Below are positions 34-43,639 of a stretch of DNA of 48,601 bases, piece by piece; the first letter of the stretch is position 1; every line of letters begins with the position of its first letter. Made by a program: the position numbers and the translations under genes. The notes beneath the pieces are model-generated. The model was given only the letters and a program-made list of their open reading frames with translations, made no database searches and was not told the origin of the DNA. This DNA comes from Clostridia bacterium (lineage in GTDB: Bacteria; Bacillota; Clostridia; Oscillospirales; Acutalibacteraceae): contig JAFTVI010000011.1 of NCBI GenBank assembly GCA_017465825.1, positions 1 to 48,601 of the forward strand, in the 5' to 3' direction.

Positions 34-1305
34 TCACCTTCGCTCGTTTTGAAATGCATTTAATTTCTGTTTGTCAAGGGCGACGGATATTTTTTGATTT
101 TTTTCTATTTTGGGGCTTGACTTTTTATAGTTAGTCTTTCTCTTTGAGATGCCGACTGTATCTGCAATTGTCTGATGCTTCATACCGTTTGCTGCAAGCT
201 CAATAACCTGCATTGCCTGCGCCTGTTTGTCTATCTTGTTCTGCTGTTTTTTCAGCTCTTGCTTCGAAAGCTTAAACAAACCAAGCTCTGCAATTTCATC
301 GGGCGTAATTGCAAGATTCTGAATAATCCAGTCTTTGGTAAGTTTATAAAACCCTTCATAATCACTACCTTTGTTGCGGTCAATACATGCGGACAATGCC
401 TTTAACTGTGAATTGGGAACTGCACGAGCATCATCAAATTTATTTCTGAAAGCGACAAGTTTGTTATATGCAGTCTCTCTGTCAAACACTTGCACTGCTG
501 CATTGTAATATACAAAACACATATATTCACGACAACCACGGCAATCAAAATTTCTGTATTCCTGAAGTTTTTCAAGCTCGGCAAGTCTGATAGTGTGAAG
601 TGCCTGTCCGAATTCGTTGTTTTTTATCTTCTTTTTCGGTGCAGGCTTCTTTTTATTAGTTTTCAACAGCTCTTCGAAAGTATAATAATCCTCATCGTAA
701 TCAATAATCTTTGTTACTTTTCTGGCAGTTGTGTTCTTTGTGCCGGGAATTCGTGCAATACGGGATATATCTGATACTTTTGTATCAAGTTCAAGTACGC
801 AATTCGCTTCTTTAAGTACCGCTTGTATATCATCGCTGATAGAATTGATTATGCTTTCTCTGATTTTAAGACCTTTTTCATTTACAGACTTATCTGTCAG
901 GCGATAAGGAATGCTTTTTTCAAAGATATAATACAAATGCAATCCTCTGCCTGTATTGATAATCAGATTCGGTTTTTTCAGACGATTTTCTTCAATCGCG
1001 TCCTTCAACGATAAATATGTATGTTCAACACCCCAGCCTACTTCTTTAGTATATTTACAATGGCAATCCAGGTCAAAGAAAAGAGCATTTATCTGACGAC
1101 ACTCGTCTGTTTTTCTTGAGATTCCACAAAATCCGTTTATTGTTATGTAAACATCCTCATCAGATGATAGTTTTGTATCAAGAAAATCCTTTGCCTTTAC
1201 AACTTCATATATTTTATCGGATTTGGGTTTAAATTTCTGGATAATGTAATTACTGTTCTTATCGTCATGGAAGAGCATTGCTGAAAAAAGTTCTTTATCG
1301 GTCAT
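34..1305 (-). CDS. RepB/AEP-type replication primase of a mobile element
   Basis: 423 aa. The N-terminal two thirds carry the pattern of archaeo-eukaryotic-type primases found in plasmid and integrative-element replication proteins: an acidic FFDLDCH motif (about residues 76-82), GRGLHLYY (about 119-126) carrying the sxH-type histidine, and a third block ISRIARIPGT. The last ~60 residues contain a helix-turn-helix-like stretch (QTIADTVGISKRKTN). The family primes or initiates replication of plasmid-like elements. The gene lies downstream of AT-rich DNA with iteron-like 22-bp repeats and is followed at once by another gene start. This suggests the left end of the window is an autonomously replicating or integrative element. 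The family call is by motif only. Confidence 0.7.
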   Translation of the reverse strand: MTDKELFSAMLFHDDKNSNYIIQKFKPKSDKIYEVVKAKDFLDTKLSSDEDVYITINGFCGISRKTDECRQINALFFDLDCHCKYTKEVGWGVEHTYLSLKDAIEENRLKKPNLIINTGRGLHLYYIFEKSIPYRLTDKSVNEKGLKIRESIINSISDDIQAVLKEANCVLELDTKVSDISRIARIPGTKNTTARKVTKIIDYDEDYYTFEELLKTNKKKPAPKKKIKNNEFGQALHTIRLAELEKLQEYRNFDCRGCREYMCFVYYNAAVQVFDRETAYNKLVAFRNKFDDARAVPNSQLKALSACIDRNKGSDYEGFYKLTKDWIIQNLAITPDEIAELGLFKLSKQELKKQQNKIDKQAQAMQVIELAANGMKHQTIADTVGISKRKTNYKKSSPKIEKNQKISVALDKQKLNAFQNERR

Positions 1306-31501: not shown

Positions 31502-31805
31502 TTAATCCAACATCATATCTTCAAATAAAGCATCACGGTCCTTCAGTCCGATAATGCCGCAGATGAATCCCTCTGTGAAATATTCAGACTTAGCAGCAAT
31601 TTCTCTTTTTAACAAGCAGAAGCGGTAAGCTTCAAATACCTCTTTCTGATTATCGTCAAGCATTTGTATAAACTTTGAATAACAATCCTCATATTCTTTC
31701 ATCAACTTTTTTTCTGCTTCCGTAAAAACATAAAATCCTGAATTTTTTTTCTGCTTCATAAGCGTCCAAGGCGTCTAAGACGTACTTATCAAATTTTTCA
31801 AACAT
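31502..31805 (-). pseudogene. DUF6809-like small protein, frameshifted at an A8 run
   Basis: The frame begins MFEKFDKYVLDALDAYEAEK from the ATG at 31805 (GGAG upstream) and shifts by one base at a run of eight A (about 31749-31756). It then reads NSGFYVFTEAEKKLMKEYED to the stop at 31502. The intact relative at 42734-43021 shows the same layout (DYEDDKNSGDFPFTEEQ), so seven A would restore a 100 aa protein. Either the gene is broken, or transcriptional slippage or phase variation at the A run restores it. It lies directly behind the structured leader RNA at 31822-32062. Confidence 0.7.
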
Positions 31806-31821
31806 TAAAATCCACTCCAAA

Positions 31822-32062
31822 TAAAAAAAGTGCACCAACCGAAGCCGGCGCACCGAAAAACGCAAACTCCGCTTGTTGCTACACAAAACAGAATATATGG
31901 TCATTTTCAATCATATCTGCTGAAATTTGCCCATCGTCTGTCGGAATTTGCGGTTTTGCAAAATTCAAAAACGACGAGCAGAAATACAAACATACAAAAA
32001 GATACAGCATCTCTATAAAAGAAAATGCCATTGTTCGCATTATATATTCTATTTTGTGTAGC
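31822..32062 (-). ncRNA. Structured leader RNA, copy A, ahead of a DUF6809-like gene
   Basis: Minus-strand RNA predicted to start at 32062. A 21-bp closing stem joins 32062-32042 with 31898-31878 (one U-G pair). The rod between carries CGCAAATTCCG (31952-31942), complementary to the later CGGAGTTTGCG (31871-31861). The 3' end is a terminator: GTGCGCCGGC-TTCG-GTTGGTGCAC (31853-31830) then seven T. The small gene starts 17 bp further on. Copy B at 43042-43275 has the same plan with different stem sequences. Not a family I recognise. Confidence 0.7.
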
Positions 32063-32068
32063 ATAGTC

Positions 32069-32097
32069 AGTATATCACAAAAAATTATAATAATCAA
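32069..32097 (-). promoter_or_regulatory. Promoter of leader RNA copy A
   Basis: TTGATT (32097-32092), 17 bp, TATACT (32074-32069). The rod stem begins 7 bases downstream of the -10 box, as in copy B. Confidence 0.75.
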
Positions 32098-42525: not shown

Positions 42526-42711
42526 AAACAATAATTTATCGGCATAAAATTGAATGGTTAAATCGTAGGGAGCGACGCCCTCGTTGCTCCGAATTAACCA
42601 AATCTGCGATTTGGTTAATTACAACAGGCTGAATGCAGATTCTTAGATGCCATTATTGATAAAAATGGTACATTTTTATCAATCGGAGCGACGAGGGCGT
42701 CGCTCCCTACG
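42526..42711. repeat. Foldback repeat (GC-ended family), third copy
   Basis: Left boundary AAACAATAATTTATC (42526-42540). GC-rich ends begin CGTAGGGAGCGACGCCCTCG (42564) and finish CCTACG (42711). Inner hairpins: AACCAAATC/GATTTGGTT and TTGATAAAAATG/CATTTTTATCAA. Confidence 0.85.
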
Positions 42712-42733
42712 GTATATCATCAAAGCATATTTC

Positions 42734-43021
42734 TCAGTCAAATATATTCCCGAATTCTTTTACGCCGATGAATCCCAGAAAGAATCCCAGCGTGAAGCAT
42801 TCGTCTTTGAGTGCGTGTTCCATTTTCCTTATACAGACATAGTAATTCTTAAAAACTTCCTTTTGTTGCGGGTCAAGCATTTCAAACAATTTATGCTGAT
42901 ATTCGTGATATTCATTTTGTAGTTTTATCTGTTCTTCTGTGAAGGGAAAATCCCCTGAATTTTTATCATCTTCATAATCTTTCAATACGGCGTTGATGTA
43001 TTCATTAAGATTCTTTTCCAT
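42734..43021 (-). CDS. DUF6809-like small protein behind the leader RNA, intact copy
   Basis: 95 aa from the ATG at 43021 (GGGGGA upstream). It is acidic and helical: MEKNLNEYINAVLKDYEDDK, then EYHEYQHKLFEMLDPQQKEV and a C-terminal ECFTLGFFLGFIGVKEF. The layout (disordered N-part, helical hairpin, amphipathic glycine-containing final helix) resembles DUF6809 proteins and closely matches the frameshifted gene at 31502-31805. Both copies follow the same kind of terminator-ended RNA leader, so expression is probably controlled by attenuation. Function unknown. Confidence 0.7.
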   Translation of the reverse strand: MEKNLNEYINAVLKDYEDDKNSGDFPFTEEQIKLQNEYHEYQHKLFEMLDPQQKEVFKNYYVCIRKMEHALKDECFTLGFFLGFIGVKEFGNIFD

Positions 43022-43041: not shown

Positions 43042-43275
43042 AAAAAAAGTGCGCCAACCGAAGTCAACGCACAAAAAATGCAAACTCCGGTAGTCGCCAA
43101 ACTAACTTTATGTGATTGGAATAATTCATTACCGAAATATTAACATCATCGAACCATCATTACCACAATAAACGGAATTTGCATTTTTAACAAATCCAAT
43201 TGTAGTAATGTTGGTCTTTAAAGGCAGAATTATTCCATAGAAAGGTGTAATTGTCACATATTAAGTTAGCTTGGC
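43042..43275 (-). ncRNA. Structured leader RNA, copy B
   Basis: Predicted start at 43275. The closing stem joins 43275-43254 with 43115-43096 (GCCAAGCTAACTT type, 2-nt bulge, one G-U). Inner stems: GAATTATTCC (43227-43236) with GGAATAATTC (43118-43127), and 43199-43215 with 43153-43169. Near the tip lies ATGCAAATTCCG (43184-43173), complementary to CGGAGTTTGCAT (43089-43078). The terminator GTGCGTTGAC-TTCG-GTTGGCGCAC (43072-43049) with T-run follows, 20 bp before the small gene. Confidence 0.72.
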
Positions 43276-43281
43276 ATAGTT

Positions 43282-43310
43282 AGTATATCACAATAATTTG
43301 TAATATTCAA
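43282..43310 (-). promoter_or_regulatory. Promoter of leader RNA copy B
   Basis: TTGAAT (43310-43305), 17 bp, TATACT (43287-43282); the closing stem starts 7 bases after the -10 box. Confidence 0.75.
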
Positions 43311-43433: not shown

Positions 43434-43639
43434 AAACAATAATTTATTGAGCAGAAAATTGAATGGTTAAATCGTAGGGATCGACGCCCTCGTCGCTCCG
43501 AATTAACCAAATCTGCGATTTGGTTAATTACAACAGGCTGAATTCATATTCTTAGATACCATTATTGATAAAAATGGTACATTTTTATCAATCGGCGCGA
43601 CGAGGGCGACGCGCCCTACGGTACGTTAAATTATTGTTT
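43434..43639. repeat. Foldback repeat (GC-ended family), best-preserved copy
   Basis: Perfect 13-bp outer inverted repeats AAACAATAATTTA (43434-43446) and TAAATTATTGTTT (43627-43639). Inner GC-rich inverted ends begin CGTAGGGATCGACGCCCTCG (43473) and finish CGCCCTACG (43620). Two inner hairpins as in the other copies. 206 bp, non-coding. Confidence 0.87.

Follow-up and report, generated by a model that had tools for sequence, protein, structure and literature searches.

The window analysed here, a stretch of 48,601 nucleotides from the genome of a Clostridia bacterium, carries on its minus strand two copies of a structured leader, each followed by a DUF6809-like gene. Copy 1 starts with a promoter (32069..32097) that combines a -35 box TTGATT (32097-32092), a 17-bp spacer and a -10 box TATACT (32074-32069) with a TG extension. 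For the model discussed below, the RNA encoded downstream may be divided into five segments. Segment 1 would be the 5' half of a long rod and includes the 5' arm of the closing stem P1 (32042..32062), whose pairs covary and whose first base lies at about +1, and the remainder of this half (31958..32041), delineated from sequence and fold. Segment 2, the 3' half, would consist of the A-strand AAAACCGCAAATTCCG (31942..31957), which has a potential partner both in the 5' side of the rod and in the distal segment, and of the 3' arm of P1 (31878..31898), in which UUGU also complements the ACAA of the linker. Segment 3 would combine this 7-nt linker, AACAAGC (31871..31877), which can form either a 4-bp hairpin with the 3' arm or part of a putative antiterminator, with the distal segment GGAGTTTGCGTTTTT (31856..31870), which is complementary to the A-strand and, together with the linker, to the 5' arm and loop of the terminator. 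This UUCG intrinsic terminator, T2 (31823..31854), begins 1 nt past the distal U5 and would contribute segment 4 (5' arm and loop) and segment 5 (3' arm).

Copy 2 shows the same arrangement, with a promoter (43282..43310; -35 box TTGAAT, 43310-43305; -10 box TATACT, 43287-43282; TG extension), a rod (43096..43275) containing the P1 5' arm (43275-43256), the A-strand (43188-43173) and the P1 3' arm (43109-43096), the linker GACTACC (43089..43095), whose T is matched by an A in the 3' arm (TTAGT), the distal segment GGAGTTTGCATTTTT (43074..43088) and a UUCG terminator T2 recognised from the sequence (43042..43072). The ATG start codons lie at 31805, 17 nt past the U-tract of copy 1, and at 43021, 20 nt past that of copy 2. 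All the elements named in the earlier note on this DNA, namely promoter, closing stem, apical segment, distal complement, UUCG terminator and gene, could be located in both copies. Both copies fold far better than shuffled sequences (z-scores of -8.4 and -8.1 for copies 1 and 2, with none of 200 shuffles as good for either), but the interior of the rod is branched or contains asymmetric loops in the minimum-energy folds. In these folds T2 is formed in copy 1 and the distal segment is paired into T2 instead in copy 2. Copy 2 is flanked by REP-like repeats (window 42560-42720 and 43480-43600) consisting of blocks with GGAGCGACGAGGGCGTCG and its inverse; similar blocks were observed near the copies at loci L008, L011 and L013.

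The gene following copy 2 (42734..43021, minus strand) is intact and encodes a protein of 95 aa. The gene following copy 1 (31502..31805, minus strand) is broken into a first frame of 38 codons starting at 31805 and a remainder at 31759-31502; relative to the copy 2 protein, the register changes in an A8 run (window 31740-31760, minus strand), through decay, assembly error or slippage. In the Pfam scan both window proteins stopped just short of the DUF6809 cut-off of 27 bits, with scores of 24.7 and 26.7 bits. The earlier note had placed the leader before such genes, but a leader specific to them is not supported. The genome contains nine DUF6809 matches, of which four have a leader match just upstream and five have none nearby (for one of the five, the contig extends only 94 nt upstream). 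Most elements of the family precede other genes, and a DUF6809-specific leader was rejected on these grounds; DUF6809 is only a local partner. At another locus of this genome (L016, G000:C22:9694), one leader is followed by a very short remnant, the end of which resembles the end of a DUF6809-like gene.

Family of leader elements and the genes behind them

A BLAST search with copy 1 identified 9 places in the genome of the window, and a 65-nt query from the tail of the element produced matches in 13 of 60 relatives. A covariance model was built from 29 sequences and confined to the tail, which comprises the 3' closing arm, the linker, the distal segment and T2, so that the upstream anatomy serves as a separate test. 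This model matched 27 of the 60 relatives (E<=1e-3), 139 of 394 genomes of the order (E<=1e-6) and 75 of 291 genomes of the class, the class sample including members of the order. It detected 15 copies in the window's own genome in the search of the relatives, at least 13 in the order search and at least 15 in the class search, the per-genome copy numbers in the latter two being lower bounds. The leader is present twice within the window, as the earlier note stated, but at least 13-15 scored copies occur in the genome. A pattern scan of named genomes returned at least 120 matching stretches; among the matches listed, the record titles include Clostridia, Clostridiales, Oscillospiraceae, Ruminococcus sp. 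and Christensenella sp., as well as Pumilibacter intestinalis and Lachnospiraceae bacterium MD329. We also considered a phage or plasmid element and rejected it: with one element as query, only 2 of 50,697 phage records produced a match (MT835503.1, 379-545, and MT835845.1, 2170-2243, both unannotated faecal assemblies) and plasmid records produced none, and one strict pattern had 0 matches in viral contigs; with looser searches, more matches might appear in any of these collections.

Comparison with Rfam 15 argues against a known RNA identity. No family reached its gathering score in the whole window, the surroundings of copy 1 gave only chance-level matches down to E<=10, and the elements of 20 loci gave no match down to E<=5, in line with the earlier note, which had not recognised the class. 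The 'skipping-rope' motif, considered as a candidate, is not among the Rfam matches. Nor was there a match to 6S RNA, the models of which belong to the Rfam library, in the window, around copy 1 or at the 20 loci; the leaders share with 6S RNA a long rod starting at the transcription start but differ from it in their many copies and in the linker, distal segment and T2 that stand ahead of genes. A limited search of the literature, including parts of PMC8040213, PMC8632094 and PMC2864571, yielded no description of the element. From this search and Rfam, the leader family may be undescribed; PMC8040213 reports 3161 candidate RNAs in its supplements, and the family may be among the unnamed ones.

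For comparative analysis, 156 tail matches at 146 loci were reduced to 152 distinct elements; 80 of the regions were taken from among the matches listed, and the sample is therefore not random. An anchor independent of pairing was passed by 140 of the 152 elements, the other 12 being dropped for a weak stem, unusual length, or the absence of an A-run motif or of a U-run. The 80 elements with rods of at least 130 nt were designated class I and the 60 with shorter rods class II. A second set comprises 104 further distinct elements from the named genomes. Tandem copies 230-480 bp apart occur at L177 (three copies) and at L170, L016, L136, L163 and L019 (two each), some upstream copies being without a full rod in the stretch examined. 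Near the leader copy at L018, a ZMP/ZTP riboswitch (1102-1184, minus strand, 60.9 bits) was observed.

Across the elements, the unit has one order: promoter, rod, 7-nt linker, distal segment, T2 and then usually a gene. In the first set, the -10 box ends 6 nt ahead of the first stem base in 122 of 140 elements, a spacing at which +1 would fall at or beside the first base pair. A cruder promoter scan recovered the same spacing in only 37 of 102 elements of the second set, and the promoter register therefore rests on the first set. T2 starts exactly 1 nt past the distal U5 in 122 of 138 elements, and 112 of the 138 T2 hairpins have UUCG. Of 140 leaders, 138 have the closing stem of the rod in their minimum-energy fold. 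Pairing amounts to 96-100% at the first 11 positions of this stem, and double changes are numerous; five rod pairs reached E<=0.025 under a tree-based null that is our own imitation, and for four of these the observed value was not attained in any of 40 simulated alignments.

The rod sequences vary almost freely. Hairpins between the apical 5'-strand and the A-strand are seen in many local folds, but no single register holds. Neither an alignment of 26 rows nor the class I 5' halves listed showed a ligand-binding core, although a short one could escape notice in both, and the pattern of conservation lends no support to a small-molecule aptamer. ATGs occur in some 5' halves, but no conserved ORF of a leader peptide was apparent there by eye. 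On the reverse strand of the class I 5' halves, inspection by eye revealed TATAAT-like stretches and no -35 box.

The genes behind T2 are placed closely. A strict ORF (ATG, Shine-Dalgarno sequence, at least 60 aa) starts 8-45 nt past T2 in 97 of the 152 elements and is missing by this test in 55. The control frequencies are about 3%: 87 of 2840 for downstream positions chosen at random and 3 of 138 for positions that diverge upstream. Under looser rules some ORF follows within 130 nt in 148 of the 152 elements, at a median distance of 21 nt. The downstream genes are diverse, and BspA-type LRR proteins are the commonest among their products: a Pfam scan of 128 distinct downstream proteins with a Shine-Dalgarno match, restricted to the first 330 residues, yielded LRR_5 (BspA-type) in 22, LRR_8 in 14, zinc ribbons in 6, MazE/AbrB-like domains in 4, AMP-binding in 3 and DUF6809 in 3, with 67 families in all. 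By a crude pattern, 73 of 129 downstream proteins start like lipoproteins, secreted or membrane proteins.

This placement bears on the alternative that the element is an independent trans-acting non-coding RNA, for which T2 would be the true end and behind which the genes would be served by basal read-through or by signals of their own. Such an RNA would account for the element having its own promoter, structured 5' end and terminator, for the 4 of 152 copies without any ORF behind them and for the tandem copies. However, the ORFs are tightly placed after T2, the linker and distal segment covary with internal partners, and an antiterminator, described below, makes little sense in a stand-alone RNA; we therefore regard this alternative as unlikely.

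Rival partners of the linker and distal segment

The earlier note had proposed that the distal segment could compete with the rod, and both indeed claim the same strand, the A-strand. We analysed this pairing together with that of the linker with the 3' arm of the closing stem (pair 2:3). All four linker:3' arm pairs are possible in 132 of 139 elements, compared with 0-1 at slid registers, and rows with minor bases are paired in 25 of 25 (5.0 expected), 8 of 8 (3.1) and 2 of 3 cases (0.1). At the variable position, the linker has T in all 25 rows in which the 3' arm has A or G; the G rows pair as G-U, which indicates that the linker follows the 3' arm and is not a copy of the 5' arm. In the second set all four pairs are possible in 100 of 104 elements, with T-A in 42, A-T in 30 and G-T in 28 at the variable position; the remaining linker is fixed by construction in this set, and by our arithmetic about 53 variable-position pairings would be expected if the two sides were independent. 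The pairing is broken in the other four (L210, L242, L257 and L277).

The A-strand:distal helix is paired in 88-100% of class II and 86-100% of class I elements at each of nine positions. In class II, 52 of 60 elements are fully paired over five positions, compared with a mean of 36.0 and a maximum of 42 in 500 swaps, a control that, like all swap and shuffle controls used for pairs 2:3 and 3:4, ignores relatedness. The class I count, 60 of 80, is barely above its swaps (mean 53.9, maximum 59) and, with only Watson-Crick pairs allowed, not above them (27 versus a mean of 20.4 and a maximum of 28). The best rod-to-distal match scores a median of 29 versus a mean of 15.9 with shuffled rods; the pairing score filter of 17 lies near the latter, so that passing it is weak evidence. 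In the alignment of 26 sequences, a 38-pair structure has 96.4% paired cells, compared with 31.5-52.0% when slid, and in 15 of its pairs, including three of the distal helix, both partners have changed. Individual pairs of the A-strand:distal helix are not significant under the tree-based null (E 1.5-9.3), which gives the best linker:3' arm pair an E value of 0.075.

The shape of this helix suggests a further alternative. Its consensus, AAAAA-YGC..YUCC / GGRG..GCR-UUUUU, resembles a bidirectional terminator, and with its A-tract, stem and U5 the helix might itself be the main terminator (T1), followed in tandem by T2, with the rod as anti-terminator, close to the pT181/pIP501 type. The frequency of another terminator-like hairpin, with a U-run (GGGGATATTATACCC-TTTTT type), in the 5' half of class I elements, 34 of 80 versus 1.9 in shuffles by a simple test, also speaks for it. 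We consider this quite unlikely because the conserved antiterminator described next makes T2 itself the regulated stop, for which T1 would be unneeded, although both could act together. In class II, the hairpin with a U-run occurs in 9 of 60 5' halves versus 0.1 in shuffles. Examples of the class I hairpin are found at L019, L088 and L103.

The pairing scheme of the earlier note set the distal segment against the rod, which stands, but overlooked a second partner, the terminator (pair 3:4). With the rod closed, the linker and distal segment have a mean unpaired fraction of 0.43 and are, in most leaders, paired with T2 in the predicted folds. In a segment ending just past the T2 loop, their pairing with the T2 5' arm and loop amounts to 8 bp or more in 136 of 138 elements. 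Pairing with an element's own T2 is stronger than with swapped ones in both classes: the mean energy is -12.2 versus -10.6 kcal/mol in class II (lowest of 60 swaps, -11.2) and -10.2 versus -9.6 kcal/mol in class I (lowest, -10.0), and the ungapped score is 16.9 versus 15.1 and 16.6 versus 16.1, respectively. The number of class I antiterminators with at least 8 pairs, 76 of 78, is not above the swapped maximum of 77. Of the 121 elements scored (17 of 138 had unscored loops), 110 have a distal-segment head that pairs fully with the pentamer of the T2 loop; the T2 loop has changed together with the distal head at L104, L137 and L149, and the 11 elements without full pairing include L030, L086, L114 and both L163 copies.

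The linker contributes to the same pairing. Its base LK3 fits the T2 base opposite in 108 of 117 elements (shuffled mean 73.3, maximum 85) and in 85 of 89 elements of the second set (shuffled mean 47.0, maximum 60). For LK4, a pair with T2 is found in only 71 of 117 elements of the first set, and LK1 showed nothing beyond chance with T2 in the second set. In two element sets, a single linker base thus shows covariation with each of its rival partners, the 3' arm and T2.

Predicted switch and proposed mechanism

Of 138 full leaders, 87 have the antiterminator and 51 have T2 in the minimum-energy fold; with the 5' half removed, the numbers are 15 and 123, and 72 of 138 leaders change from the antiterminator to T2 upon losing the 5' half. 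Two of these groups run counter to a simple switch: the 51 leaders that, like copy 1, favour T2 although the rod is closed, and the 15 that retain the antiterminator after loss of the 5' half. Without this half, 125 of 140 leaders form the A-strand:distal helix and 103 form the linker hairpin. When the A-strand:distal pairing was forced in the full leader, the median cost was about 20 kcal/mol and it was favoured in 0 of 140, implying that the rod is the default and that a strong trigger must remove the 5' half. The rod and the 2:3 helix are mutually exclusive, given the strand that they share and the 7-nt linker. A pseudoknot between the apical loop of an intact rod and the distal segment was rejected on geometric grounds, since a 7-nt linker faces rods of about 90-190 nt.

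The anatomy of the leader, its family, its placement ahead of genes and the two rival partners of segment 3 are shown by sequence comparison and by predicted folds. As in attenuators, a promoter, an intrinsic terminator and a gene on the same strand are found in this order, and conserved, mutually exclusive pairings are present, one of which overlaps the terminator. The element is probably a cis-acting transcription attenuator that permits read-through while the rod is intact and stops transcription when the 5' half is captured; we infer that termination is regulated in this manner in the cell and that the closed rod is the ON state. In this model, pairs 1:2 (the rod) and 3:4 (the antiterminator) would coexist and the polymerase would continue into the gene. 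If segment 1 were removed, by a bound RNA, a bound protein or folding kinetics, pair 2:3 could form, with up to 16 bp between A-strand and distal segment and 4 bp between 3' arm and linker. Acting as an anti-antiterminator, this pair would free segment 4 for pair 4:5, that is, T2, and transcription would stop ahead of the gene. The conserved regulatory RNA or attenuator suggested by the earlier note has gained many homologues and is the best reading of the element; of the findings that the note had set against its proposal (no further homologues, no covariation, an Rfam match), none occurred.

Pairing of the linker and distal segment with T2 gives the switch a direction opposite to that of a reading in which read-through occurs in the other state, with the 2:3 helix, its U5 ending 1 nt before T2, crowding the base of T2 out of the RNA exit channel. 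The fixed 1-nt spacing described above would suit such crowding, but the 3:4 antiterminator, which places U5 and its neighbour in or near its loop, accounts for it too, and T2 does form in the great majority of predicted folds without the 5' half. This makes the crowding reading highly improbable.

A factor loaded at the promoter or onto the RNA (Q/AlpA-like, or a put/EAR-like polymerase contact) might alternatively carry the polymerase past T2, with the alternative pairings merely shaping the signal. Promoter, leader and T2 do form one unit, and several terminator-like structures stand in a row. The LoaP, put and EAR leaders similarly combine a 5' leader RNA ahead of terminators with several loci per genome, but they differ from the present family, which has no Rfam match and in which 26 of 27 element-bearing relatives are without a second NusG match (E<=0.001; the exception is G001, and the search covered NusG). 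This disfavours antitermination dependent on a NusG paralogue, and since pair 3:4 would provide antitermination without any factor, we judge a factor-based mechanism very unlikely.

The proposed attenuator has several relatives in design. pT181 repC and pIP501 repR are antisense-controlled transcription attenuators of plasmids. As in these, a 5' segment of the leader pre-empts a downstream one, and its loss lets the terminator form; in contrast, the present family is chromosomal, has up to 15 scored copies per genome and precedes diverse genes, and antisense RNA is not part of the picture so far. With the amino-acid attenuators of the trp type it shares a chain of mutually exclusive hairpins that ends in an intrinsic terminator but differs in its five segments and in having no conserved leader ORF (by eye) and no theme of biosynthesis genes. 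The logic of anti-antiterminator, antiterminator and terminator ahead of a gene is that of riboswitch-type attenuators, whereas no aptamer-like core was seen, the rods are nearly free in sequence and the genes show no metabolic theme. Although this kind of attenuator is itself known, what appears to be new here is a large class of attenuator-like RNAs that are built of five segments and show no ligand-binding core.

More speculatively, the leader might be a portable promoter-leader cassette, shared as a switch by accessory and surface genes in many Clostridia, that senses the closure of the rod rather than a ligand of a conserved aptamer. Many leaders of unrelated rod sequence could then be switched together by one general trigger, for instance a nuclease, a protein that binds double strands or the mutual capture of halves between leader RNAs, a prospect that we put forward only tentatively. 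The pairing scheme gives precise predictions for each strand, and a simple reporter could open the question of what the leader senses. A family without Rfam assignment that occurs in about one-quarter to one-third of the sampled genomes of the class and order, that reaches up to 15 scored copies per genome and that precedes genes for surface proteins, lipoproteins, zinc-ribbon and AbrB-like proteins and enzymes, would rank among the larger unexplained groups of leader RNAs of gut bacteria.
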